A stretch of 32,922 nucleotides of DNA, taken from positions 1 through 32,922 of the forward strand of contig JAPJNA010000019.1 in NCBI GenBank assembly GCA_026461395.1, given 5' to 3'. Below the pieces are notes generated by a model. It was not told the origin of the DNA. It did not search any database and was given only the letters and a program-made list of their open reading frames with translations. This document shows, in pieces, positions 6,695-20,241 of the stretch (the stretch's first letter is position 1; each line of letters starts with the position of its first letter). Both the position numbers and the translations under genes were made by a program. This DNA comes from Chthoniobacterales bacterium. Lineage in GTDB: Bacteria; Verrucomicrobiota; Verrucomicrobiia; Chthoniobacterales; UBA6821.

Positions 6695-9013
6695 GTGATC
6701 GAAAAACATCTCGTCCAAATAACAACCGAACTCGGCCTCCAGCCCCGTCAGGTCGCCGCTACTGCCGTCCTACTCGAGGAGGGAGCCACCGTTCCCTTCA
6801 TCGCCCGCTACCGCAAGGAACGCACCGGGGAACTCGACGAGGTGAAGATCACAGCGATCCGCGATCGCCTGGAGCAACTGGAGGTGCTCGATAAGCGGCG
6901 CGAATCGATCATTGCCTCTCTCGAGGAACGCAAACTCCTCACCGAGGAACTCCGCTTCAAGGTGGAGACTGCCTCCAGCCTGAACTCACTCGAAGACATC
7001 TACCTTCCCTTCAAGCCGCGCAAGCGCACCCGTGCGACCATCGCAAAGGAACTCGGTCTGGAACCTCTTTCCGAGATCCTCTGGGCTCAGGATCCCGCGA
7101 CCGATCCGGAGACACTCGCCGCGCCCTATGTCGGCAACTCAGTCACCGTGGATGCCAAGACCTCGACTCTCGATACCGTGGCCGCCGTCCTGGCAGGCGC
7201 CCGAGACATCCTAGCCGAGCGGATCAATGACGACGCCGCGTTGCGCGCCCAACTCCGTAGCCTCTACCTGAACAAGGGAGTCATCAAATCGACCCTCATT
7301 TCCGGTAAAGAAGAGGAGGGAGCCAAGTTCAAAGACTACTTTGACTGGAGCGAACCGGCCGCCACCGCGCCTTCTCACCGCATCCTTGCTATGCGCCGTG
7401 GCGAGACCGAAGGATTCCTCTACTTCCGACTCACACCGCCCGAGAGCGAGGCGCTGGGTATTCTCTTCATGCTCTTTGTGAAAGGGAATTCAAAGGCCTC
7501 CGAACAGGTGAAGCTAGCCTGCGAGGATTGTCTGAAACGACTGGTGGGCTTCGCCATGGAGGTGGAGGCCCGCGGTTTTTACAAAAAGAAGGCCGACGAG
7601 GAGTCGATCCGCGTCTTTGCCGACAATCTCCGCGAGCTCCTGCTAGCCTCCCCGCTCGGGCAGAAGATCACTCTCGGCATCGACCCCGGATTCCGCACGG
7701 GCTGCAAGATTGTCCTGCTCGATCGTCAGGGAAAGCTTCTGGCCAATGAGGTCATCTATCCGGGCCGAAGCCGGGGAGAGGAACTCGAAGCCGCTGAGGC
7801 CATCCTGAATATCGTCCGCCTTCACAAAGTGGAGGCCATCGCCATCGGTAACGGCACCGCCTCGCGCGAGACAGAAACCTTCGTGAAGAAACTCAAACTT
7901 CCCTCATCCATCCAGATTGTCGTGGTCAGCGAGAGCGGGGCATCCATCTACTCGGCAAGCGAGATCGCCCGTGAGGAATTCCCCGACTTGGATCTGACCG
8001 TCCGGGGGGCAGTCTCCATCGGGCGCCGCCTCATGGATCCTCTGGCTGAGCTCGTGAAGCTCGATCCAAAATCGATCGGTGTCGGCCAGTACCAGCACGA
8101 TGTCGATCAAGCCGCACTCAAGCGCTCCCTCGACGATGTCGTCATCTCCTGCGTGAACAAGGTGGGCGTCGAGCTCAACACAGCCTCCCGTCATCTCCTG
8201 GCCTATGTCTCGGGCCTGAACTCCCGCACGGCGGCGAGTCTTGTTAGCCACCGCGATACCAATGGCCCTTTCAAGTCCCGCGCCGAGCTCCTCAAGATCA
8301 GCGGACTGGGGCCGAAGGCCTTCGAACAGGCGGCTGGATTCCTGCGTATCCGCGATGGCGCCCATCCCCTGGATGCCAGCTCCGTCCATCCCGAACGGTA
8401 CGAACTCGTGGATCGCATGGCGGCGGATCTCGGCTGTACAGTGGCCGATCTCCTGCGCGATCCCGCCAAGCGATCAGCAATCAAGCTCGAGAGCTATGCC
8501 ACCCCCGAGGTGGGGCTTCCGACACTCAAGGACATCGTCGCCGAGCTGGCGAAGCCGGGCCGCGATCCCCGCGAGCAATTCGAGGCCTTCAGCTTCGCAG
8601 ATGGTGTCGAGAAAATGGAGGATCTCCAACCGGGCATGAAACTCCCCGGCATCGTGACGAATGTCACCGCCTTCGGGGCCTTTGTTGACATCGGGGTCCA
8701 TCAGGACGGCCTCGTTCATATTAGCCAGATCAGCGACGACTTCGTTCAGAACCCCTCTGAGTTCCTGAAGGTCGGCCAGAAAGTCCAGACGACTGTTATG
8801 GAGGTAGACCTGCCCCGCAAACGCATCGCCCTCTCGCTGAAGACCAAGGTCGACCTCACGCCTCGTGATCCTAAGGGCGGGGGAGCTCCGGGCGGTGATC
8901 GCCGCGGTCAGGGAGGCCGAGGAGAGGACCTCAGCCGTTTTATGCGCAACGATTCAGGAAAACCCGGAACCGGTGGAGACTGGTTTTCCCAGGCTCAGCA
9001 GAAGAAATTCTGA
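6695..9013 (+). CDS. tex: Tex, S1 RNA-binding transcription accessory protein
   Basis: A 772-residue homologue of Tex, a cytosolic nucleic-acid-binding protein linked to transcription and stress tolerance in several bacteria. Domains are in the standard order. An N-terminal helical Tex region comes first (LGLQPRQVAATAVLLEEG, then TVPFIARYRKERTGELDE). A YqgF/RNase H-like domain starts near residue 326 (LGIDPGFRTGCK). Helix-hairpin-helix segments lie near 500-560 (SGLNSRTAASLV, KISGLGPKAFEQAAGFLRI). An S1 domain lies near 647-720 (GIVTNVTAFGAFVDIGVHQDGL). A basic Gly-rich tail follows. Translation starts with GTG at 6695. Length is typical, with no sign of damage. The other-frame ORFs inside it are shadows. 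Confidence 0.96.
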   Translation: MIEKHLVQITTELGLQPRQVAATAVLLEEGATVPFIARYRKERTGELDEVKITAIRDRLEQLEVLDKRRESIIASLEERKLLTEELRFKVETASSLNSLEDIYLPFKPRKRTRATIAKELGLEPLSEILWAQDPATDPETLAAPYVGNSVTVDAKTSTLDTVAAVLAGARDILAERINDDAALRAQLRSLYLNKGVIKSTLISGKEEEGAKFKDYFDWSEPAATAPSHRILAMRRGETEGFLYFRLTPPESEALGILFMLFVKGNSKASEQVKLACEDCLKRLVGFAMEVEARGFYKKKADEESIRVFADNLRELLLASPLGQKITLGIDPGFRTGCKIVLLDRQGKLLANEVIYPGRSRGEELEAAEAILNIVRLHKVEAIAIGNGTASRETETFVKKLKLPSSIQIVVVSESGASIYSASEIAREEFPDLDLTVRGAVSIGRRLMDPLAELVKLDPKSIGVGQYQHDVDQAALKRSLDDVVISCVNKVGVELNTASRHLLAYVSGLNSRTAASLVSHRDTNGPFKSRAELLKISGLGPKAFEQAAGFLRIRDGAHPLDASSVHPERYELVDRMAADLGCTVADLLRDPAKRSAIKLESYATPEVGLPTLKDIVAELAKPGRDPREQFEAFSFADGVEKMEDLQPGMKLPGIVTNVTAFGAFVDIGVHQDGLVHISQISDDFVQNPSEFLKVGQKVQTTVMEVDLPRKRIALSLKTKVDLTPRDPKGGGAPGGDRRGQGGRGEDLSRFMRNDSGKPGTGGDWFSQAQQKKF

Positions 9014-9069: not shown

Positions 9070-10224
9070 TCAGAGACTCAGCGGCCCCGTCCACCTTTCG
9101 GCCTTGGAGCGCCAGTCGGGGAGCAAGGAGATCTTGAGAAGCTCGCGGTTGATCGCTGACAACTGCGGAAGTCCCTGCCTCGTGGCGAAGGCATAAATCA
9201 TCGCTGAGTCGGGAAGCGTGTAGAGATCGCACTTCAAATCAGGGTTGCGGTTCATCATGTATTGCAGTGGCACCACATCTCCGGCAAACGCAGTGATCAG
9301 ACCCATCTCGTCGGCATTTTTGATTTCGTCGTAGGTGTTGAAGCGTTTAGCGGGGATCCCCCGTTCCTGGAGCAGGAAATCCATCCGTGACCCGGCGACA
9401 CACCCAACCTTGAATCGAGGGAGATCGTTGAAACTGACGATGCCCTCTTTCATCTCGGCGCGGGTGAGAGAGGAAGCGACTGTTCCCGTGAACACGGCGA
9501 TGATCAGCACCCCCGCGAGCATCCAAAAAAAGGTGACCACGCGTCCAAGCAGAGAGAGCGGCGTTTTGTCGCCATAACCGACAGTTGTCATGGTAACGGC
9601 TGAGAACCAGAGAGCCGAACCAAAGCCTTTTACCGAGGGGCCGCTAAAATGCCCCTTCTCATGTTTCCTCTCGACGAACATCAGGAGAAGGCTGAAGAAA
9701 ATCATTCCGAGCAACATCGCGAGGAAGATAATGAGCACCTTTTTGTTCATCAGGATCCCGTGGAATGTGGTGAGCGATTGCAATAGGGATTTATGGGGGG
9801 TCAAAACCGCACCATGGCTGAAGAGATACGGTGCGGTGAATTCGATATTACCTGCCTCCTCACCGGAAAGCGCTATGACTGGGCTCAGATCGCACTTGCC
9901 AGTGCGCAGTTGTTTCATGATCTCAACCAGTGGCATCTCGACATACTCGTAGGTGATCCCAAGCTTTCCTGCGATCTGCTCCCAGAGATCAACGCTGAGA
10001 CCGCTCCAGACTCCGACCCCGTCCTTAAAGCTGAACGGAGGGCGATCACAGACCGCCACTTTAAGTTTATGGGAATTTAAAGAACCCTTCGGGGCCGTTT
10101 TCGTCACTGCTGTGACTGCAGCCGATCGAGCTGACGACTCGGCGTGCAAGGGCGTCATGGGAGACAGTGCCAGTCCGCCGGCCAGAAGGAGGAAGAGACA
10201 TCGGGGAAAATCCATCCCTTTCAT
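9070..10224 (-). CDS. Prokaryotic ionotropic glutamate receptor-like potassium channel (GluR0 type)
   Basis: A 384-residue predicted ligand-gated channel. After a signal peptide (CLFLLLAGGLALSP...HAES) comes the first half of a periplasmic solute-binding domain (about 50-150: KVAVCDRPPFSF, SGLSVDLWEQIAGKLGI). A membrane helix (about 162-184), a re-entrant pore loop with the potassium selectivity filter TVGYGD (214-219) and a second helix (about 229-251) follow. The second half of the binding domain ends the protein. This split S1-TM-P-TM-S2 order is that of Synechocystis GluR0. The start at 10224 was chosen because an AGGAG lies six bases upstream; ATGs at 10230 and 10215 are alternatives. 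The usual Arg in the TxxxR motif before FxxPY is absent (ALSGEEAGNIEFTAPY), so the ligand may not be glutamate. It stands alone between tex and the AraC gene, convergent with tex. Confidence 0.88.
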   Translation of the reverse strand: MKGMDFPRCLFLLLAGGLALSPMTPLHAESSARSAAVTAVTKTAPKGSLNSHKLKVAVCDRPPFSFKDGVGVWSGLSVDLWEQIAGKLGITYEYVEMPLVEIMKQLRTGKCDLSPVIALSGEEAGNIEFTAPYLFSHGAVLTPHKSLLQSLTTFHGILMNKKVLIIFLAMLLGMIFFSLLLMFVERKHEKGHFSGPSVKGFGSALWFSAVTMTTVGYGDKTPLSLLGRVVTFFWMLAGVLIIAVFTGTVASSLTRAEMKEGIVSFNDLPRFKVGCVAGSRMDFLLQERGIPAKRFNTYDEIKNADEMGLITAFAGDVVPLQYMMNRNPDLKCDLYTLPDSAMIYAFATRQGLPQLSAINRELLKISLLPDWRSKAERWTGPLSL

Positions 10225-10452
10225 TAACATCTCCTGATATCGGAGAGAACATCTTATCTTGAGGCATCCCCTCCTGAGCGGAAATCCCATGACTCCTCAC
10301 TCCCCAACTATCTCGGCCGTCCCCCCGGGAAATTCAGACGGTCGCGGCGAGCGTGAAGACGAAGCTCGGTCGTGTAGGCGGGGATGAGTAGTTCAACGAA
10401 AAAAACAATTATTCAGAGCAAGACGACAACCAACAATATCTGTTGAGGCGTT

Positions 10453-11265
10453 CTAATGCTTTGTATCCGCATAGACGCTCGGCTGAAGTCCGGTTTGTTT
10501 TTTGAACCATCGCGAAAAGTAGTTCTGATCCAAAAAGCCAAGCTGTGCACATACATTTTTGACCTGAGATTTTTCTCGCAGTAGACGGATGGTCTTCTTG
10601 AGAAGCAGGGCGTCCCGGTATTCGCGGAGCGTTTGCCCGGTGGCCTGCTTAAAGATCCGGTTCAGGTAATCGGTTTGGTATCCCATGCTTCTGGCGAGGT
10701 CTCCAATTTCCGGAAGCGGAGTTTCACTCTGGTTTAAGAGGCGTTCAAATTTCCGGACGAAGGCCGGAGTTTCCCGCTGCTGGGCGGGAAGGCCGCCCGT
10801 GGCCCGGAGCAGAGTGTCCAGAATACGCAGGATGCCTGCGGCGGCCAAAAGCCGGCAACTGGCATGGCCGGGATCAGAAACCTTCGCCAGGGCGGCCAGT
10901 TCCCTCTTGATGTCTCCTGCCTGGGATTGGCTCAGGCGGTTAAGGAAAAAGCCGCGTTTCACTGCGCCCCTCCAATCCACGTCCAGAACGAGGCAAAGGG
11001 GGCGCCGTCCGGATGTTTCCCGGAAGGAATGCAGACAGTGAGGAGGAAGGAATGCGACAGACCCCGGTCGGGTTTCATAGGTTCGTCCGTTCGCCACGAT
11101 TATCCCCGCCCCGCTCAGGTAGCACAGGATCTGAGTGAAGGAGTGGCTGTGTTCGGCGAGTTGATCCACCTCTGGCAGGTGACGGTGCATGCGCAGGCGC
11201 CGCACTCGGAGGCCAGGAAGCCTAACGTCTATCTCCTGAAGAAGCAGGGGACGGTAATTTTTCAT
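10453..11265 (-). CDS. AraC-family transcriptional regulator with cupin sensor
   Basis: A 270-residue regulator. The N-terminal half is a cupin-like sensor (EHSHSFTQILCYLSGAG, GSVAFLPPHCLHSF). The C-terminal half is a double helix-turn-helix of AraC type (IGDLARSMGYQTDYLNRIFKQATGQTLREY, then VKNVCAQLGFLDQNYFSRWFKKQTGLQP). The start at 11265 was chosen because codons upstream to 11379 overlap the promoter region and do not fit the family. It is transcribed away from the SDR-GH88 operon, so it most likely controls that operon and itself from the shared 107-base spacer. The sugar inducer is unknown; a uronate or unsaturated disaccharide would fit the neighbours (inference). Confidence 0.9.
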   Translation of the reverse strand: MKNYRPLLLQEIDVRLPGLRVRRLRMHRHLPEVDQLAEHSHSFTQILCYLSGAGIIVANGRTYETRPGSVAFLPPHCLHSFRETSGRRPLCLVLDVDWRGAVKRGFFLNRLSQSQAGDIKRELAALAKVSDPGHASCRLLAAAGILRILDTLLRATGGLPAQQRETPAFVRKFERLLNQSETPLPEIGDLARSMGYQTDYLNRIFKQATGQTLREYRDALLLKKTIRLLREKSQVKNVCAQLGFLDQNYFSRWFKKQTGLQPSVYADTKH

Positions 11266-11372
11266 GATGATGATAGAAAAACACCAATACGACGAAAAGA
11301 AAGTCGTTTCTGTGCTATAAATGCTCGTGCTTGTCATAACTGCCCTCTCTTTTTTTCGCGTAATTTTTTTTG
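11266..11372. promoter_or_regulatory. Divergent control region between AraC gene and sugar operon
   Basis: The 107 bases between the two divergent starts are AT-rich compared with the flanking genes. They contain an ACGAC...GTCGT inverted pair around 11289-11309 and poly-T tracts next to the SDR start. Promoters for both directions and the AraC binding sites must lie here, but I could not define -35/-10 boxes with confidence. Confidence 0.35.
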
Positions 11373-12158
11373 ATGACACCAGCAGTTCTCGTTACCGGTT
11401 CCAGCCGTGGTCTAGGTCGCGGAGTGGCAGAATCCCTTGCCGCCGCGGGCTACAGCGTGGCGGTGCATTTTGCCAGCAACAGGCAAGCCGCCGAACAGAC
11501 TGCGGAGGAATGCCGTCGCCTGGCTAACACGGCGGAACAAAAGTTCTGCGTTGTGGGTGGCGATATAGGCAACGCGGCTGACCGGCAGAGTCTTTTTGAT
11601 CAGACGCTGGAAGCCTTCGGGCACCTCGATGCCCTAGTGAACAATGCAGGGATCGCTCCGCGTGTGCGGGCGGACATCATGGACGCCACGGAAGAGGTTT
11701 TCGACGAGGTCATGGGGGTCAACCTCAAGGGACCATATTTTCTCTCCCAGTTGGCCGCGAGATACTGGCTTTCCAAGCCCGGTCAGTCCCGGCTCTCCAC
11801 GGGATACAAGCTCATCTTCGTCACCTCGCTTTCGGCGAACACGGCTTCGGTCAACCGCGGGGAGTATTGCATCTCCAAGGCCGGACTCTCGATGGCCGCA
11901 CAGCTCTGGGCTGTACGCCTTGCCGCAGAAGGAATTCAGGTCATGGAACTGCGTCCGGGCATCATGGCCACGGATATGACATCGGGAGTGAAGGAGAAAT
12001 ACGACAAGCTTCTGGCCGACGGGATCGTTCCGCAGAAGCGGTGGGGCGAACCTGCCGATGTTGGACGTGCAGTCGAATCGATTCTGGCCGGACATTTTGC
12101 ATTTTCCACGGGAGACGTCGTTAACATCGACGGTGGATTTCATCTCCGCCGCTTATAA
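11373..12158 (+). CDS. SDR-family NAD(P)-dependent oxidoreductase (3-ketoacyl-ACP reductase-like, sugar cluster)
   Basis: A 261-residue short-chain dehydrogenase with the classical elements: cofactor motif TGSSRGLGRG near the N-terminus, NNAG in LVNNAGIAPRVR, Ser in VTSLSAN, and the YxxxK pair in GEYCISKAGLSMAAQLWA. The RGEYCISKAGLSMAAQL phrase and the end GDVVNIDGGFHLRRL match the subgroup annotated as 3-ketoacyl-ACP reductase, which commonly sits in sugar catabolic loci rather than in fatty acid synthesis. Oxidation or reduction of a sugar acid or polyol is the likely role (inference from context). ATG at 11373; a TTG at 11370 is possible. Six bases separate its stop from the GH88 start, so the two are one operon. 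Confidence 0.88.
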   Translation: MTPAVLVTGSSRGLGRGVAESLAAAGYSVAVHFASNRQAAEQTAEECRRLANTAEQKFCVVGGDIGNAADRQSLFDQTLEAFGHLDALVNNAGIAPRVRADIMDATEEVFDEVMGVNLKGPYFLSQLAARYWLSKPGQSRLSTGYKLIFVTSLSANTASVNRGEYCISKAGLSMAAQLWAVRLAAEGIQVMELRPGIMATDMTSGVKEKYDKLLADGIVPQKRWGEPADVGRAVESILAGHFAFSTGDVVNIDGGFHLRRL

Positions 12159-12164
12159 CCAACC

Positions 12165-13565
12165 ATGATCCACATACGACACGATCTCGCTCCCCAGCAG
12201 CTTTCCTCGAAGCTGGCGACTTTTTGGGAGGCTTCCGCTCCGAAAATCCTTTCTATCGACGCATGCGAAATGCCCGGCGCAGCAACGCCGGTCTTCACGA
12301 TTGGAGGGCGCTACACTGCACGCGGCTGGACAGAGTGGACGCAAGGTTTTGTTTATGGTTCGTCCATCCTGCAATACGATGCCACCGGCGATGAACGCTT
12401 TCTCTCGCTCGGACGTGCCCACACTCGCGACCGCATGGCCCACCATATCACGCACACCGGGGTACATGATCATGGGTTTAACAACGTTTCCACCTATGGA
12501 AATTTGTTGCGCCTCATGGTGGAAGGACGGATTCCGTTTGATGAGCGGGAGAAGGATTTCTACGAACTGGCTCTCAAGTGCTCGGGTGCGGTTCAGGCAA
12601 CCCGCTGGACAAAAACACAGGACGATGGGGGATATATCTATTCCTTCAACGGCCCGCACTCTCTCTTTGCCGATACCATCCGTTCACTGCGAGCCCTGGC
12701 GGTTTCTCATGCGCTCGGCCATGTCTTGATGGGTGAGAAGGATGCGAAAATCTCTCTTCTTGGCCGTCTGCTGGATCATGCAAAGACCACGGCCGATTTT
12801 GCCGTGTATTATGGCGAAGGCAGGGATGCCTACGATCTTCGGGGCCGCGTGGCCCACGAAAGCATCTTCAATACGAACGACGGTAACTTCCGCTGCCCGA
12901 ATTCTCAGCAGGGCTATTCCCCGTTCACTACATGGACGCGCGGGCTTGCGTGGATCATCGCAGGATATCCCGAACAACTTGAGTGGATCGCCACGCTGGA
13001 AGACTCCGACCTCGAACCTTTCGGTGGGCGTGATGCCATCGAGGTCATGCTTTTGCGTCCGGCTCTTGCAGCCTGTGATTTTTACATCGAGCAGACACCG
13101 ACCGATGGAATTCCCTATTGGGATACCGGCGCGCCCGAGTTGCACCGGATCCCGGATTATCTTAACCGCCCGGCGCAGATCGAAAACGACTTCGAGCCGG
13201 TGGACAGCTCGGCAGCGGCCATCGCCGCACAGGGTCTTCTGCGCCTCGGGCGCTATCTTCAGAACAAAGGCGAACCGAGCGGCGATCGCTACTGGCAGGC
13301 TGGTCTGACCGTTGCGGACACCGTCCTCTCGGAGCCCTATCTTTCTACCGATTCGGAACATCAGGGGCTCATCCTGCATTCGATTTATCACCGCCCCAAT
13401 GGTTGGGACCATATTCCCGAAGGTAGCCGGATACCGCGCGGCGAATCGTCGATGTGGGGCGACTACCATGCCCGTGAGCTGGCCCTCTATCTCCAGCGCA
13501 TCATCGAAAACAAACCCTACTACACCTTTTTCACTGGAGTCCGCTCTGCTGAAACTGGACATTGA
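12165..13565 (+). CDS. Glycoside hydrolase family 88-like (unsaturated glucuronyl hydrolase)
   Basis: A 466-residue cytosolic protein without a signal peptide. GH88 hallmarks are visible in order: HDHGFNNVSTYGNLLRL, which matches the HDLGF catalytic region; FNTNDGNFRCPNSQQGYSPFTTWTRGLAWIIAGY, matching the WxRGQAW segment; PVDSSAAAIAAQGLLRL; and a C-terminal MWGDYHARELALYLQR, matching the GDYY.LEAL segment. GH88 enzymes hydrate the 4,5-double bond of unsaturated glucuronyl residues left by polysaccharide lyases, releasing the sugar. Which polysaccharide is involved cannot be read from sequence. No lyase gene is present in the window, so the substrate would be imported as an oligosaccharide. 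It is second gene of the AraC-linked operon. Confidence 0.85.
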   Translation: MIHIRHDLAPQQLSSKLATFWEASAPKILSIDACEMPGAATPVFTIGGRYTARGWTEWTQGFVYGSSILQYDATGDERFLSLGRAHTRDRMAHHITHTGVHDHGFNNVSTYGNLLRLMVEGRIPFDEREKDFYELALKCSGAVQATRWTKTQDDGGYIYSFNGPHSLFADTIRSLRALAVSHALGHVLMGEKDAKISLLGRLLDHAKTTADFAVYYGEGRDAYDLRGRVAHESIFNTNDGNFRCPNSQQGYSPFTTWTRGLAWIIAGYPEQLEWIATLEDSDLEPFGGRDAIEVMLLRPALAACDFYIEQTPTDGIPYWDTGAPELHRIPDYLNRPAQIENDFEPVDSSAAAIAAQGLLRLGRYLQNKGEPSGDRYWQAGLTVADTVLSEPYLSTDSEHQGLILHSIYHRPNGWDHIPEGSRIPRGESSMWGDYHARELALYLQRIIENKPYYTFFTGVRSAETGH

Positions 13566-13576
13566 AAACATCCCTA

Positions 13577-14026
13577 ATGATTATCTCGGATCTCACGCAA
13601 ATCGAAGGCCGACGGTATCCAGCCCGCCGCAGAACCCAAAACCTCGCCGGGGGAGTCGCTCCCATTCAGGCAAAAAACTTCAGCATGGGAAATGTCACGC
13701 TGGACCCCAAAGGTGGGCAGGTTCCGTGGCACAACCAAGAGCAGGAGGAAGTATATTTTGTTATCGAAGGCACTGGAGAAATGTGTCTCGGTTCCGAGCG
13801 TCAAACAGTTACGGCAGGACAGATGGTTTTTATCCCTTCTGGCGTTTTTCATCAGCTTACCAACACCGGCGAAACACCCCTGCGCATGGTCTACTGTTAC
13901 GGTCCGGCGGGGGATGTCGCCCACTGGCGCCAGGAACTCGACGGCACCCTTCCCAAGGCCGGCCTTGAGGCACCGTCTCTGCCTGATGGCGCATGGCCCC
14001 AGTGCACCGAAAAACCCTCCGCATAA
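13577..14026 (+). CDS. Small cupin-domain protein
   Basis: A 149-residue single-domain cupin. Motif 1 is [20 protein letters not shown], with His and Glu metal ligands, and motif 2 is [18 protein letters not shown], with a second His. Such proteins act as sugar isomerases, epimerases or dioxygenases, or bind a ligand without catalysis. In this operon a role in remodelling the sugar released by GH88 is plausible but unproven. The ATG at 13577 was preferred over a TTG at 13562 that overlaps the GH88 stop. It is 11 bases downstream of GH88 and 22 bases upstream of the next gene. Confidence 0.82.
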
Positions 14027-14048
14027 TTTTTTCCAAATACCACACAAT

Positions 14049-15200
14049 ATGAAAATCCACACAGTCGGCATCATCATGAACGGCGTCACCGGACGCATGG
14101 GCACAAACCAGCACCTAATCCGATCGATTGATGCCATCATCAAGCAGGGCGGCGTCAAGATCAGCCCGACCGAAATCATCATGCCCGATCCCGTGCTGGT
14201 GGGACGCAATGAAGTCAAACTGAAGGAGCTCTGCGATCGCACCTCGGTCAATAAATGGACTACCGATCTGGACAGCGTGATGAAGGATCCCGCCTACACG
14301 ATTTACTTCGATGCCCAGAGCACGCTGCGGCGATTCGACGCGGTGAAGCAGGCAGCCGAAGCCGGTAAGCATGTCTATTGCGAGAAGCCGACCGCCATCA
14401 CCACTGAGAACGCCTATGCGCTTTACAAAATCTGCCGCGATGCCGGCGTGAAGAACGGGGTCGTCCAGGACAAGCTCTGGCTCCCGGGTCTCGTCAAGTT
14501 CATGCGTCTGAAAGAAAACGACTTCTTCGGCGACATCCTCTCGGTGCGCGGAGAGTTCGGCTACTGGGTCTTCGAGGGTCACAGCGTTTCTCCCCAGCGT
14601 CCGAGCTGGAACTACCGCAAGGAGGACGGCGGCGGGATGGTTGTGGATATGCTCTGCCACTGGCGTTACGTCATTGACAATCTGTTCGGTGAGGTAAAGC
14701 GCGTTTCCTGCCTGGCCTCAACCCATATTCCCGAGCGCATTGACGAGCAGGGCAAACCCTACAAATGCACCGCCGACGACTCCGCCTACTCGACATTCGA
14801 ACTCGATAACGGCGTGGTATGCCACTTTAACTCGTCGTGGAATGTACGAGTTCGCCGCGATGATCTGCTCACCATGCAGGTCGATGGAACTAAGGGCAGC
14901 GCGATTATTGGGCTGCGTGATGTGTGGATTCAGCACTATGGAAACACGCCGAGGCCGACTTGGAACCCCGATGTGCCTCAACCGATCAACTTCTTTGACG
15001 GCTGGAGTAAGGTGCCCGAGCAGGAAACCTATGACAACGCATTCAAGATCCAGTGGGAGCTCTTCCTCCGGCACGTCGTGCTCGACGAGCCGTTCCGATG
15101 GACTCTTCTCGAAGGGGCCAAGGGAGTGCAACTTGCGGAATTAGGCCTCAAGAGCAGTGACGAACGCCGCTGGCTGGACCTGCCCGAACTTGCTTCCTAA
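14049..15200 (+). CDS. Gfo/Idh/MocA-family sugar oxidoreductase
   Basis: A 383-residue NAD(P)-dependent oxidoreductase. The N-terminal Rossmann domain has [11 protein letters not shown] in place of the usual GxGxxG and the hallmark EKP ([11 protein letters not shown]), whose Lys is the catalytic or cofactor-binding residue of the family. The C-terminal alpha/beta domain includes [23 protein letters not shown], with the usual His. The family oxidises or reduces sugars such as myo-inositol, glucose or uronates. The longer frame to 13692 overlaps the cupin and is not used. It is the last gene of the operon; a GC-rich hairpin follows at 15235-15258. Confidence 0.9.
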
Positions 15201-15234
15201 GAATCCATAACCGCCGCATTTTATTCGGAACTCG

Positions 15235-15258
15235 CTGCCGACATAGCAAGATCGGCAG
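15235..15258. terminator. Possible hairpin after the sugar operon
   Basis: A 7-bp perfect stem (CTGCCGA / TCGGCAG) with a 10-base loop, 34 bases after the oxidoreductase stop. No T-run follows it, so an intrinsic terminator is doubtful; it could instead be an attenuating or mRNA-stabilising structure. Confidence 0.25.
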
Positions 15259-15465
15259 TGTCGCTGAGTTTGAGGCGGATTGTCGCTAGCAATACAACTT
15301 CTTGCACGCGCCTTGCTTGCCGGCGGGGTGAATGCCATCGGACTCAACCTCCGCACCGGGATCCGACACTCCGCCAACCCAGGGCATCTGAGAAGATTGC
15401 TTCCTGAATCAAAGTAATGTGAATGGAACTCAGCCAGAAACAGGGAAAGCCCAACCCGGGCAAGT

Positions 15466-16221
15466 TCACACGCCGCAGAGATCGAGTAGCGTCTTAGCGT
15501 CTTCCTGAAGGCTGGCGGGATCATCACCTCGCACGAACTCCAGAAGAAGAGCCAAGTCCTTTCCCTGCCGCCTAAGCTCAGCAATGTAGGCGCTCCAACG
15601 ATCGCGCCCATTCTCAAGCGGCCATCTGCATGACGAGTCCGGCCACCAGTGGAAAACATGGATGTGTTGAAGGCGTGGGGTCAATGCGCGGAGGCTTGCA
15701 AGGCACTCCTGGGGTGACAACCCATGCGGAGGCTGCCAGAGGGTTTTGATGAAGGGATGATCTGTAGCGCCCAGGAGTTCTAAGGCCGAATCTGTCGAGT
15801 CGGTTAACGTCCCATTGTGGAATTCATACGCGATGGAAATGTTCCTGGCCGCCGCGAGATCGGCGCAGCGGAGAGCATCATCGGCAACCATTTTTTTAAA
15901 ACCGGGACTGGCATCAGACGAACCGCAGTTACCGGCCCAAACCCGGATGACGGGAGCACCGAGGGCAACGGCCGTGGCAAGGACTGATGCAAAATCCGGT
16001 CCATCCGGGCAAGCGAGGCGGTAATATGATCCATAGGCCGCGACCGAGAGCCCTGCGTCACATGTCAAATTGCCAATCACTTCGGCGGTTTTCTCATCGC
16101 CATGAGGCACGTGGACATCGCCCCCCCATTCGATTGACGAAAGTCCGTTCTGTCGACAGAGAGCAACAATCGCGGCAGGGACGAGATTGCGGAAAGTGAT
16201 GGAAACAAGGCCTGGGTTCAT
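15466..16221 (-). CDS. Sugar phosphate isomerase/epimerase (TIM-barrel, xylose isomerase-like)
   Basis: A 251-residue protein of the AP endonuclease 2/xylose isomerase-like TIM-barrel superfamily. It starts MNPGLVSITFRNLVPAAIVALC and continues with barrel strands SSIEWGGDVHVPHG, VIRVWAGNCGS, SIAYEFHNGTLT, HIHVFHWWPD and ALLLEFVRG. The Glu/His metal ligands of the family fall in these strands. It probably isomerises or epimerises a sugar or keto-sugar and could act with the operon on the opposite strand, which it faces convergently. The 265 bases between its stop and the oxidoreductase stop hold the hairpin and no convincing gene. Confidence 0.85.
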   Translation of the reverse strand: MNPGLVSITFRNLVPAAIVALCRQNGLSSIEWGGDVHVPHGDEKTAEVIGNLTCDAGLSVAAYGSYYRLACPDGPDFASVLATAVALGAPVIRVWAGNCGSSDASPGFKKMVADDALRCADLAAARNISIAYEFHNGTLTDSTDSALELLGATDHPFIKTLWQPPHGLSPQECLASLRALTPRLQHIHVFHWWPDSSCRWPLENGRDRWSAYIAELRRQGKDLALLLEFVRGDDPASLQEDAKTLLDLCGV

Positions 16222-16223
16222 CG

Positions 16224-16547
16224 TCAGGCCATCTGGCTAAGTTGATTCTGGCTGATGACATAGCGCAGCGGTTCACCTGACAGAAACCTCCGGAGCTCGT
16301 CCAGCATCCACATTCCCATGCGCGCACATTCCTGCTGCATGCTGCCGTCGATGTGCGGGGTGAGCACGACATTCGGAAGTGACCTGAGCGGAGAATCCTT
16401 CGCAGGGTGTTCTGGATAAGTCACATCCAGAACGGCGGGAAGGTCAGCATGCCGGGAGAGAACCTCGATCATCTCAACCTCGGCCACGACAGCACGGTGC
16501 GTAGTCGGTGGAGGGCAGCTCGCCTTTCGAAAGCTCGTCGCCATCAT
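16224..16547 (-). pseudogene. C-terminal fragment of a D-2-hydroxyacid dehydrogenase
   Basis: A 107-codon frame whose last 90 residues match the C-terminus of the dehydrogenase encoded at 17068-18300 nearly motif for motif: AVLDVTYPEHPAKDSPLRSLPNVVLTPHIDGS here against AILDVTHPEPPLPDSPLFRLPNVFLTPHIAGS there (shown in pieces of a longer match). It keeps the catalytic Glu and His region (YPEHP, LTPHI) but lacks the whole substrate domain and most of the NAD-binding domain, including the Arg of TSRG. The first 17 residues are unrelated to the family. This is a broken paralogue, left after a deletion. It starts directly at the end of the 34-codon frame at 16544-16648. Confidence 0.75.
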
Positions 16548-16648
16548 ACGTGCTTATCCCGAAATGGATGAACCTGCCGAATTTGAGCCTCCCATTTTTG
16601 GAGTAGTTCGAGGGTGAGGCGCTGAGCGCTAGATTCGTTGTTTCTCAT
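16544..16648 (-). pseudogene. 34-codon N-terminal gene fragment
   Basis: A short frame MRNNESSAQRLTLELLQKWE... that ends at TGA 16544-16546, overlapping the ATG of the dehydrogenase fragment. The helical, charged composition looks like a protein N-terminus. It may be the start of a different gene whose body was deleted together with the front of the dehydrogenase. No family recognised; it could be chance. Confidence 0.3.
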
Positions 16649-16677
16649 AGTTTTCTAGATGTCGAATTGTTATTGGT

Positions 16678-16860
16678 TCACGGCATCTCAATCAATGTCT
16701 TTAATCCCCGCTTGTTTTGCACATCCGCCCAGACCTCGGCGAAGCGGTCGAGCGGATACCGCCAGATGATCCAGCCGGTGGCAGTCAAGCTTCCATCGAG
16801 TAGCATCCGGCAGACCTCCTCGTGGGCGGAGAGTTGGTCGGGGTCGATGTCAATGACCCA
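16678..16860 (-). pseudogene. C-terminal fragment of a zinc-type alcohol dehydrogenase
   Basis: Reading the minus strand up to the TGA at 16678-16680 gives about 60 residues without an internal stop. They resemble the end of medium-chain (zinc) alcohol/threonine dehydrogenases: EVCRMLLDGSLTATGWI, then RYPLDRFAEVWADVQNKRG, then LKTLIEMP. The pattern of helix, 'YPLD.F..V' and a final 'K..I' strand is typical of that family's C-terminus. No start codon or upstream domain exists: at about 16860 the similarity stops and an oppositely oriented AraC fragment begins. It is too short to have been called as a gene. Confidence 0.55.
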
Positions 16861-16862
16861 CG

Positions 16863-17045
16863 AACTACGTCTCGGAGATCCGCCTTCAAAAAGCCCGCGC
16901 CCTGCTGATTAACTGTCCGGCTACAATCTTGGAGATCGCAGATCGCGTCGGCTTCACCTCAACCGCCTATTTCTGCCGGATCTTCAAAAAGCGCCGCGGC
17001 ACGAACCCGGGCGCGTGGCGCCGCGCACACCTCGCGGAGGGTTGA
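16863..17045 (+). pseudogene. C-terminal HTH fragment of an AraC-family regulator
   Basis: Sixty residues on the + strand ending at TGA 17043-17045 form the second helix-turn-helix of an AraC protein: YVSEIRLQKARALLINCPAT, then ILEIADRVGFTSTAYFCRIF, then KKRRGTNPGAWRR. The phrase IADRVGF...YFCRIFKK is diagnostic. A stop lies three codons upstream and no start codon serves the frame, so sensor domain and first HTH are gone. It abuts the dehydrogenase fragment on its left and the stop of the 2-hydroxyacid dehydrogenase is 23 bases to the right. Confidence 0.7.
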
Positions 17046-17067
17046 TGCGCGGAGTAGTTCCCGCTGG

Positions 17068-18300
17068 TCACGCCATCGTGCCAAGCATTTCCTGGGTGAC
17101 GCGGTGTTGCAACGGGCTTCCCTCCAGATAGCGGGCGAACTCATCGACCATCCAGCGCCCCATGCGCTCCACCTCCCCATCTATGCTTCCTGCGATGTGG
17201 GGAGTGAGGAAGACATTGGGCAATCGGAAAAGAGGAGAATCAGGGAGTGGCGGCTCGGGGTGCGTGACATCGAGGATCGCCGTGAGATCAGGGCGGGATT
17301 TCAGAATCCGGCAAAGGGCCGGTTCGTCGATGACCACGCCCCGCGACGTATTGAGCAGAGTCGCTCCCTCCTTCATCGAGGAGATGAGATCGGCCCCGAT
17401 CATCCCTTCGGTCTCCGGGAGATGCGGGGTGTGGATACTGACGACCTCGCATTCGGCAAATAGTTCCGTGAGGTCGACAAGGCGGACCCCAAGGTCCGCA
17501 GCGGTTTCGCTTGTGGCAAACGGATCATAGGCCAGAACCTCGACTTCGAGGGATCGAAGCTTCCGGGCAGTCAACTGCGCGATAACTCCCAAGGAGACCA
17601 GGCCAACGCGCGTCTTGTAGCTGCCGGGCACCGGCATCCTGCAAAACGTGCGATGATCGCGGGCCGCGCGCATGTGCGGGAAGACTCGCTTTAACGCGAG
17701 CAGGATCGTAGCAGCGGAGAACTCCGCGACAGGGATCGCGTTGGCACTCGCTGCACTCGAAAAGACGATGCCCCGCTGGAACGCTTCCGGGGTGGCAAAG
17801 CCTTTGACGCTCCCCGCTGCGTAAAACACGGCACGAAGCGAGGGAAGGCGGTTCAACAGCTCAGCATCGAGTGTCGGCATTCCCCATGTGGAGAAGATGA
17901 TTTCCGTGCGATCCAGCCGGGCGAATTGCGCCAACTCATCCGAACTCGTCTCGCCGAGGATCGTTGCGATTCCGGAAACCTCGGCACGCAGGTCGGGAGG
18001 GAAGACACAGCCAAGATACTCGCGCATCCCAAGAAATAGCACTTGAGGGCCTGCTTGCGGGTATTCGCTGCGAGTGCCAATGGCGGAGTGAGTTGGTCGG
18101 GGAGTGCACAGAGTTTGAGGCCCAGACCGCTGGTCGCTCTCTCTGGAATTAGGAACCAGAATGTCGGCATTGCGCTGGGTATTGATGACAACCGATGTCG
18201 CGTCGAGGACGGCCTGCGCGCTCGGGAGAGCGTCAAGCCGGTCGATGGGCGAGTAGGAACCGACAGTGGTAGTGAGGATTTCGGGTTGATTCGTTTTCAT
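17068..18300 (-). CDS. D-2-hydroxyacid dehydrogenase, fused in frame to a MetE-like N-terminal fragment
   Basis: The frame encodes 410 residues. From about residue 86 onward (VLFLGMREYLGCVFPPDL) it is a complete NAD-dependent D-isomer-specific 2-hydroxyacid dehydrogenase. It has the Rossmann loop VGLVSLGVIAQ, where one Gly of GxGxxG is Ser, then VVSIHTPHLPET, the Arg of LLNTSRGVVIDE, the Glu of VTHPEPP and the His of LTPHIAGS. Such enzymes interconvert 2-keto and 2-hydroxy acids. The first 50 residues instead resemble the start of cobalamin-independent methionine synthase-like proteins, and residues 52-85 match nothing. ATG at 18027 would give a dehydrogenase of about 319 residues, close to family length. 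Whether it is still made, and from which start, is unclear. A paralogous fragment lies at 16224-16547. Confidence 0.75.
   Translation of the reverse strand: MKTNQPEILTTTVGSYSPIDRLDALPSAQAVLDATSVVINTQRNADILVPNSRESDQRSGPQTLCTPRPTHSAIGTRSEYPQAGPQVLFLGMREYLGCVFPPDLRAEVSGIATILGETSSDELAQFARLDRTEIIFSTWGMPTLDAELLNRLPSLRAVFYAAGSVKGFATPEAFQRGIVFSSAASANAIPVAEFSAATILLALKRVFPHMRAARDHRTFCRMPVPGSYKTRVGLVSLGVIAQLTARKLRSLEVEVLAYDPFATSETAADLGVRLVDLTELFAECEVVSIHTPHLPETEGMIGADLISSMKEGATLLNTSRGVVIDEPALCRILKSRPDLTAILDVTHPEPPLPDSPLFRLPNVFLTPHIAGSIDGEVERMGRWMVDEFARYLEGSPLQHRVTQEMLGTMA
18145..18300 (-). pseudogene. N-terminal fragment of a MetE-like (cobalamin-independent methionine synthase II) protein
   Basis: The first 52 codons read ILTTTVGSYSPIDRLDALP, then SAQAVLDATSVVINTQRNAD. 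This matches the N-terminus of MetE-like proteins, which begin with TTTVGSYP followed by a short helix, DA...VV..TQ..AG. In that family the rest of the barrel binds zinc and substrate; here the similarity ends abruptly near residue 52, and the frame runs on into the dehydrogenase. It has its own ATG and lies at the 5' end of the transcript, so it may now only supply translation initiation. Confidence 0.5.
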
Positions 18301-18921: not shown

Positions 18922-20241
18922 ATGATGAAACCAGTATCCGATAATAACCATTCGCACTCCGCTAATTCGGCGACAAGAATCCTGCTCGCCAGCCTTGCCG
19001 GGACGGCTATCGAGTTCTTCGACTTCTACATCTACGCCACGGCTGCGGTTCTCGTTTTCCCGAAACTCTTTTTTCCCCAGGGTGATCCCACGGCAGCCAC
19101 ACTCCAATCACTAGCGACTTTCTCTCTGGCCTTCTTTGCAAGACCCTTCGGATCGATCTTTTTCGGCCATTTTGGCGACCGGATCGGAAGAAAAACAACC
19201 TTGGTTGCGGCCCTCCTGACGATGGGACTCTCCACGGTCTTGATCGGCCTTCTACCCACCTACGCTTCGATTGGTTTGGCTGCGCCTATCCTTCTCGCCC
19301 TCTGCCGTTTCGGACAGGGCTTTGGTCTTGGCGGGGAATGGGGCGGAGCGGTCCTGCTCGCCACCGAGAATGCTCCTCCCGGAAAACGCGACTGGTACGG
19401 AATGTTTCCCCAGCTTGGCGCGCCCATCGGCTTCATCTTCTCCGGCGCGATCTTCCTCCTGCTCAGCAAAAATCTTGATGCCACAAGCTTCCTGACATGG
19501 GGCTGGCGGGTCCCTTTTCTCGCCAGCAGTGTGCTGGTGCTCGTCGGACTCTATGTCCGACTCAACATCACCGAGACACCTGCTTTTCTGGAAGCATCCG
19601 CGCGCAGGAGCCCTGTCGCCCTGCCGATGATCGATCTCCTGCGGAACCATCTTCGCGTCGTGATCCTGGGAACCTTCGCCGCGGTCGCGACCTTTGTGAT
19701 CTTTTACATCCTGATTGTCTTCTCGCTCTCCTGGGGCACAACGCAGCTTGGCTATTCCAGAGAAACCTTCCTGATCATACAGCTTGCCGGCGTAGTCTTC
19801 TTCGCTCTTTCAATTCCCTGCACCGCATGGATCTCCTCGCGAATCGGGCGCCGGAATATGCTCCTTCTAGCCACCGTGGCGATCCTGATTTTCGGACTAC
19901 TCTTCGGACGCATCTTCTCGGCGGGAACTCCGGGTGTGGTGGCAACGCTCGTGATTGGCTTTCTGCTCATGGGGGTCACTTACGCACCGCTCGGGACCTT
20001 CCTCTCCGAACTCTTCCCTGTGGAGGTGCGGTACACAGGAGCCTCGATCTCCTTCAATATCGCTGGGATTCTTGGAGCCTCGCTGACTCCCTATTTGGCG
20101 ACCTCGCTGGCCATGAGTCATGGACTGGGATCCGTTGGATTCTATCTCGCCGCAATGGCCCTGATCAGTCTGGTCGCCCTGCTGTTGTCGCCAGCAAATC
20201 AGATTACGGAAGGCGTCGGTAATAGCGCAGGGCCTCGATAG
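18922..20241 (+). CDS. MFS transporter, metabolite:H+ symporter (MHS) family
   Basis: A 439-residue inner-membrane protein with 12 predicted helices. The N-terminal signature GTAIEFFDFYIYATAAVLVFPKLFF is that of the MHS family (ShiA, KgtP, ProP, CitA). The loop 2-3 motif GHFGDRIGRKTTL, the helix 4 region LCRFGQGFGLGGEWGGAVLL and the second-half SELFPVEVRYTGASISFNI are also typical. MHS proteins take up organic acids, shikimate or osmolytes with protons. Substrate is not deducible; the neighbouring 2-hydroxyacid dehydrogenase makes a carboxylate plausible. ATGs at 18922 and 18925 are both possible; AAGG lies upstream. The 3' end overlaps the convergent peptidase gene by 38 bases. Confidence 0.9.
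   Translation: MMKPVSDNNHSHSANSATRILLASLAGTAIEFFDFYIYATAAVLVFPKLFFPQGDPTAATLQSLATFSLAFFARPFGSIFFGHFGDRIGRKTTLVAALLTMGLSTVLIGLLPTYASIGLAAPILLALCRFGQGFGLGGEWGGAVLLATENAPPGKRDWYGMFPQLGAPIGFIFSGAIFLLLSKNLDATSFLTWGWRVPFLASSVLVLVGLYVRLNITETPAFLEASARRSPVALPMIDLLRNHLRVVILGTFAAVATFVIFYILIVFSLSWGTTQLGYSRETFLIIQLAGVVFFALSIPCTAWISSRIGRRNMLLLATVAILIFGLLFGRIFSAGTPGVVATLVIGFLLMGVTYAPLGTFLSELFPVEVRYTGASISFNIAGILGASLTPYLATSLAMSHGLGSVGFYLAAMALISLVALLLSPANQITEGVGNSAGPR

Follow-up and report, generated by a model that had tools for sequence, protein, structure and literature searches.

A putative GluR0-like potassium channel of Chthoniobacterales without the ligand-anchoring arginine of glutamate receptors

GluR0 is the main model for the origin of ionotropic glutamate receptors (iGluRs), in which a potassium pore and a binding protein were brought together. 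It is a K+ channel of the plasma membrane with a topology opposite to that of canonical K+ channels, and its loss alters the volume response of the cells to KCl (PMC13099474). The Group 1 prokaryotic glutamate receptor channels, surveyed as 12 proteins that were termed putative glutamate-sensitive, likewise have a binding domain that flanks a pair of helices with a K+ filter (Ger et al. 2010, PMC2950845). The ligand-binding roles of R485 and E705 have been described for GluA2 (PMC5766834), and Arg77 of LAO and Arg102 of NocT are the equivalent arginines that bind the ligand carboxylate in binding proteins (PMC4192606). Most insect ionotropic receptors (IRs) have lost the same arginine of the S1 lobe along with other glutamate contacts and sense other ligands, a minority having kept it (PMC7882480).

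Here, we analysed a stretch of 32,922 nucleotides (the window) from a Chthoniobacterales bacterium. With moderate confidence, we read one of its genes as encoding a putative periplasm-facing, ligand-gated K+ channel, the ligand of which would no longer be anchored as in glutamate receptors.

Gene and architecture of the channel

The channel gene reads on the minus strand at 9070-10224 (384 codons plus stop), within a longest ORF of 406 codons at 9070-10290 (minus strand); the plus strand across 9070-10224 is broken by stops. The initial annotation had these coordinates right and left the strand unstated. Its start codon, the ATG at 10224 (residue 23 of the longest ORF), is also the one preferred here over the ATG at 10290, because an AGGAG at 10235-10231 sits 6 bases ahead of it, because a relative with 94% identity has Leu in place of Met at residue 21, and because two stop codons interrupt the corresponding upstream stretch of the orthologue with 78% identity. 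Residues are numbered from the ATG at 10290 throughout; 22 is to be subtracted for the shorter start. Purifying selection acts on the gene (dN/dS ~0.14-0.29 against its orthologues), and the genome that hosts it, a 2.03-Mb assembly with 95% completeness, has a single clear channel copy. The features of the gene are as follows.

9070-10224, minus strand: predicted gene of a GluR0-like ligand-gated K+ channel (ORF, Pfam, AlphaFold2 model, orthologues)
10231-10235, minus strand: Shine-Dalgarno-like AGGAG (the sequence itself)
10141-10224, minus strand: signal-peptide-like N terminus (MKGMDFPRCLFLLLAGGLALSPMTPLHA; sequence judged by eye, in a low-confidence region of the model)
9787-10068, minus strand: S1 lobe of the SBP_bac_3 clamshell, residues 75-168 (Pfam, AlphaFold2 model, VIA-align)
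9670-9744, minus strand: M1 transmembrane helix, residues 183-207 (AlphaFold2 secondary structure, Ion_trans_2)
9589-9636, minus strand: pore helix, residues 219-234 (AlphaFold2 secondary structure)
9568-9585, minus strand: selectivity filter of the potassium type, TVGYGD, residues 236-241 (the sequence itself and an alignment of 27 relatives)
9445-9552, minus strand: M2 helix, the equivalent of iGluR M3, residues 247-282 (AlphaFold2, Lig_chan match)
9085-9444, minus strand: S2 lobe of the clamshell, residues 283-402 (Pfam, AlphaFold2, VIA-align)

The protein thus runs from a signal-peptide-like start through S1, M1, a pore with TVGYGD and M2 to S2. The Pfam match to SBP_bac_3 at residues 76-312 is split by those to Ion_trans_2 and Lig_chan at residues 190-293, all above the curated cut-offs, and the order of these domains agrees with the elements of the AlphaFold2 model, in support of the GluR0 plan proposed initially, namely a binding domain split by two membrane helices with a potassium filter between them. 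That filter reads TTVGYGD in the window protein and its orthologues. The FTGTVASSLT of M2 lies at what we take to be the position of the gating motif of eukaryotic iGluRs.

The AlphaFold2 model, built from a 27-sequence alignment, has a mean pLDDT of 74.9, with both lobes mostly at 84-95, the block of the Arg loop (residues 141-150) at a lower 75, and residues 1-71 unreliable. When VIA-align was applied to the 1000 best Foldseek chains, the model matched 1ii5 best, in which the ligand core of GluR0 is bound to glutamate (25% identity; Z 26.1 and 2.1 A over 215 of 221 residues). NpGluR0 ranked fifth (Z 25.7), and as a number of amino-acid binding proteins lie no more than one Z unit away, these matches are effectively tied. 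Whole-chain Foldseek matches were LBD-TMD chains of AMPA, delta, kainate and NMDA receptors. In the model, S1S2 takes a GluR0-like clamshell fold, which speaks against the possibility, named by the initial annotation as one that would refute it, that the S1 and S2 halves do not build such a domain. A generic K+ channel of the voltage-gated type with a separate, adjoining binding protein was ruled out, as there is one frame, the Lig_chan match is above cut-off and the clamshell is split by the pore.

GluR0 (Synechocystis slr1257; 1ii5, 1iit) and NpGluR0 (Nostoc punctiforme, 2pyy) share with the window protein the S1-M1-P-M2-S2 order, the lack of an N-terminal domain and of M4, the same predicted clamshell and the Asp on the amine side, and the potassium-type filter is common to the window protein and GluR0. 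The window protein differs from both in having Glu145 for the S1 Arg, Ala140 for the S1 Ser and Arg302 for the Thr of helix F, and in a one-residue deletion of the Arg loop, at a domain identity of ~25%. The binding domain around two helices and the K+ filter likewise match the Group 1 proteins (PMC2950845), whereas the glutamate anchor is missing. The SBP_bac_3 amino-acid binding proteins (GlnH, LAO, ArtJ, NocT) share the fold of the ligand domain (Z ~24-26) but are soluble transport proteins without a pore, and LAO, HisJ and NocT, unlike the window protein, retain the carboxylate Arg (PMC4192606).

In the mechanism that we propose, S1 and S2 of the exported subunit would assemble a periplasmic clamshell, and M1, the pore loop and M2 of four subunits would, by analogy with GluR0, together make up a potassium pore of inverted orientation. 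When a small molecule shuts the clamshell, M2 would be pulled and the pore opened, again by analogy. What we infer is a tetramer, potassium conduction, gating by ligand, and a ligand that is not glutamate in its standard hold.

The altered ligand pocket

Three codons are central to the pocket.

9856-9858, minus strand: Glu145, at the site of the Arg that binds the ligand carboxylate (GluA2 R485, LAO Arg77, NocT Arg102; alignments)
9277-9279, minus strand: Asp338, at the site of the amine-binding acid (Asp of GluR0 FDRP, GluA2 E705; alignment)
9385-9387, minus strand: Arg302, at the start of helix F in S2 (alignment, register checked against NpGluR0 and AncQR)

The S1 segment of the window protein is CDLSPVIALSGEEAGNIEFTAPY. 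In the alignments, including that of 100 relatives, Glu145 is aligned with the Arg of GluR0 and GluA2; the GluR0 sequence used is identical to 1ii5 and 1iit, and the GluA2 sequence was also checked. We also looked for an Arg shifted to another place in the S1 loop; this is ruled out for the window protein, the loop of which contains neither Arg nor Lys. A sequencing error does not account for the loss, because all three orthologues (94, 86 and 78% identical) carry an acid at residue 145 (E, E and D, respectively), and on this ground, together with the dN/dS values, a pseudogene was rejected as well. The absence of the S1 Arg reported by the initial annotation is thus real, and it follows, as had been suggested, that binding of the ligand probably differs from that in glutamate receptors.

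Other parts of the pocket are altered or retained. Across the whole clade of the window protein, the Arg loop is shorter by one residue. Further pairings with GluA2 are Ala140 with T480, Val138 with P478 and Phe86 with Y450, and residue 86 has stayed aromatic. Asp338 is conserved in all eight clade members; it was assigned through the Asp column of GluR0, because the automatic alignment with GluA2 was one residue out of register at E705.

These residues suggest that an alpha-amino acid bound in the standard pose is probably not the ligand. Because Asp338 is kept and an acid has taken the place of the Arg, the molecule most likely to bind would carry an amine or another positive group and have no alpha-carboxylate at the usual site. 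Since the S1 Arg is missing, the protein should not, judging by its pocket residues, be classed as a glutamate receptor by ligand; its architecture is that of a GluR0-like channel.

The same clade carries a second charge change, on lobe 2. A scan for clade-specific charges showed that residue 302 is Arg (Lys in L035) in 8 of 8 clade members and in 0% of the other potassium-filter relatives. Arg302 aligns with the second Thr of GluR0, with the Thr of AGSTAAT in NpGluR0 and with S654 of GluA2, for which the register may be off by one; the backbone of S654 holds the gamma-carboxylate of the ligand in GluA2 (PMC5766834). From its motifs, Arg302 would also correspond to Ser169 of NocT, the NH of which contacts the ligand carboxyl (PMC4192606). 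Three clade members are informative at residue 145: L009 and L011 have both arginines (Arg145 and Arg302), and L010 has Met145 with Arg302. The presence of both in L009 and L011 fits an Arg302 older than the loss of Arg145. According to the alignment, Arg302 may substitute for the lost S1 Arg or pair with Glu145, and the two main alternatives to our reading start from these options. The first would make Arg302 a candidate for the Arg elsewhere in the pocket that, in the view of the initial annotation, would refute its reading.

If Arg302 replaces the S1 Arg, a carboxylate would still be bound, from the other lobe, and an amino acid or dicarboxylate would perhaps be sensed, possibly turned round within the cleft. 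We regard this as unlikely, though not negligible. It agrees with the confinement of Arg302 to the clade, with its alignment to sites where the backbone touches the ligand carboxylate, with the two arginines of L009 and L011, which would be expected if Arg302 came first, and with the inverted glutamate poses seen in simulations of GluA2 (PMC5766834). However, the contacts at this site are largely made by backbone NH groups, and the Arg302 side chain need not point at the ligand, because the residue of the relatives varies freely there (Leu, Val, Glu, Met, among others). Moreover, the acidic Glu145 at the former Arg site would be expected to repel a carboxylate.

Alternatively, Glu145 and Arg302 would form a salt bridge between the lobes and no ligand would be bound, leaving a K+ leak or another form of gating, for example by ionic strength. 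The altered pocket may indeed mean that there is no ligand at all, the facing positions are oppositely charged in all four orthologues (E/D145 with R302), and the known role of GluR0 is in the response to KCl (PMC13099474). The bridge rests on alignment, however, and Asp338 has been kept in the whole clade, residue 86 is still aromatic, and the same Arg302 accompanies Met145 in L010 and Arg145 in L009 and L011, which makes this reading improbable. That the gene is decaying or not expressed, with an incidental loss of the Arg, is very improbable: residues of the pocket vary widely among relatives and one relative in the genus is a fragment only, though at a contig end, but the dN/dS values largely refute decay, there is a third-position excess, frames are intact and the position beside tex is kept. 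A ligand-gated channel with a ligand anchored differently is the reading that we retain.

Genomic neighbourhood

Two neighbours of the channel gene recur in related genomes.

6695-9013, plus strand: Tex-like RNA-binding protein with an S1 domain, convergent neighbour (S1 domain; conserved synteny in seven other species of the genus)
18922-20241, plus strand: metabolite:H+ symporter of the MHS type (MFS), 8.6 kb from the channel here (synteny)

The channel and Tex-like genes lie tail to tail in the window and in G004, G008, G015, G011, G009 and G001, and they are near each other in G010, where the channel is a fragment. A phage or mobile origin of the channel was rejected, as one scan of viral contigs yielded no relative and the tex neighbour is conserved.

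The symporter belongs to the ProP/ShiA/TcuC group, with a match to TIGR00883 just below cut-off. It is the direct divergent neighbour of the channel in G004 and G009, one SnoaL-like ORF lies between the two in G001, and the second channel copy of G008 (41% identical) has another transporter of that family as its divergent neighbour. Symporter loci beside channels were recorded at L080:8319-9581, L076:4700-6019 and L084:3212-3751. This link is suggestive, no more, of a shared metabolite that would be both substrate and ligand.

In the window, a cluster at 10453-18300 separates the two genes and encodes an AraC-type regulator, an SDR, a Gfo/Idh/MocA protein, a xylose-isomerase-like TIM barrel and a 2-hydroxyacid dehydrogenase. 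It is not present in G004, G009 and G001, so an operon with this sugar cluster was ruled out as conserved context, and the cluster seems to have been either inserted here or lost in the relatives. A further product of the window, 466 aa long and encoded at 12165-13565, has no NCBIfam match and matches glycosyl hydrolase family 88 only below threshold.

Relatives and recurrent loss of the arginine

A scan of genome contigs matched two loci, both from uncultured Spartobacteria, the nearest named relatives. Within the genus, some match was found in 16 of 16 genomes, and clear orthologues or close potassium-type relatives in 8 of them, one of which holds only the fragment that lies at a contig end. 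The 27-row profile (E up to 1e-20) has a match in 81 of the 384 genomes of the class, and the narrower Lig_chan model matches 26 of 289 genomes of the phylum and 0 of 14 named control genomes. From the counts of 81/384 and 0/14, the rarity that the initial annotation had ascribed to this plan therefore holds for bacteria at large and not for this class.

The relatives compared comprise 100 non-identical sequences, 60 with a potassium-type filter and 40 with other pores (GGADN, GGCEN, MTGKSNH, TQIGGAAAGG and further ones). The S1 Arg is retained in 38 of the 40 relatives without the potassium signature and in 32 of the 60 with the filter, so that the missing Arg, regarded at first as an oddity, is a true absence shared with 28 of 60 potassium-filter relatives and no one-off. 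On a tree of 71 sequences, from which the Arg column was left out, the Arg/non-Arg state requires 6 changes, or 8 losses without regain, counts that are less certain at the long branches L130, L133 and L026. Because shuffled labels average 22 changes against these 6, the states are inherited by clades.

Some relatives carry an Arg two residues downstream of the S1 Arg site, namely eight sequences of f20/f17 and L027; the displaced Arg occurs in seven f20 sequences with TPExAREV and variants of it, and also in L133. These cases are less clean than that of the window protein, because this downstream position is often basic in Arg-bearing relatives too. Of the 60 potassium-type relatives, 18 lack the acid on the amine side, and this lack is not clearly associated with the state of the Arg.

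A second set of proteins with the GluR0 plan occurs in the same genus, order and class, with pores that lack a potassium signature (MTGKSNH, GGADN, GGCEN and TQIGGAAAGG) and with the S1 Arg nearly always kept. It includes L038, L050, L052, L059 and L065-L067 from the same genus, L041, L048, L033 and others from the order, and L037 and L042. In L037 (G090:C5:4000-7600), two GluR0-like genes lie in tandem, with the filters TQAGAAAGE and TQIGGAAAGG as against the TTVGYGD of the relatives.

In the literature searched, which was thin in subscription journals, no paper was found that describes the variant or a repeated loss of the anchor, and the matches for iGluRs of Verrucomicrobia were gut-brain reviews or transcriptome papers, apparently by chance co-occurrence. 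Insect IRs are likewise iGluR relatives that mostly lack the S1 Arg (PMC7882480), but they are eukaryotic three-helix cation channels, and no link by descent to the window clade is claimed. We suggest tentatively, with more doubt than conviction, that the GluR0-like K+ channels of the class may be a bacterial counterpart of the IR radiation, having repeatedly shed the Arg and become sensors of other chemicals, each lineage with pocket residues of its own; the window clade would have gained the lobe-2 Arg before the loss on lobe 1, which would amount to a charge moved across the cleft.

The repeated loss of the anchor in potassium-type bacterial relatives of iGluRs lifts this channel beyond a routine new member of the family. 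A large bacterial set that retains the potassium-type pore and has repeatedly lost the glutamate anchor represents a series of natural variants, which could be used to test what the bacterial relatives of iGluRs sense, how ligands are switched within the fold and whether glutamate sensing was original. The subunits, small, with two helices and encoded by a single gene, are tractable for both structure and physiology. As the Arg has been lost many times, the channels of this class that lack it probably sense chemicals other than glutamate.
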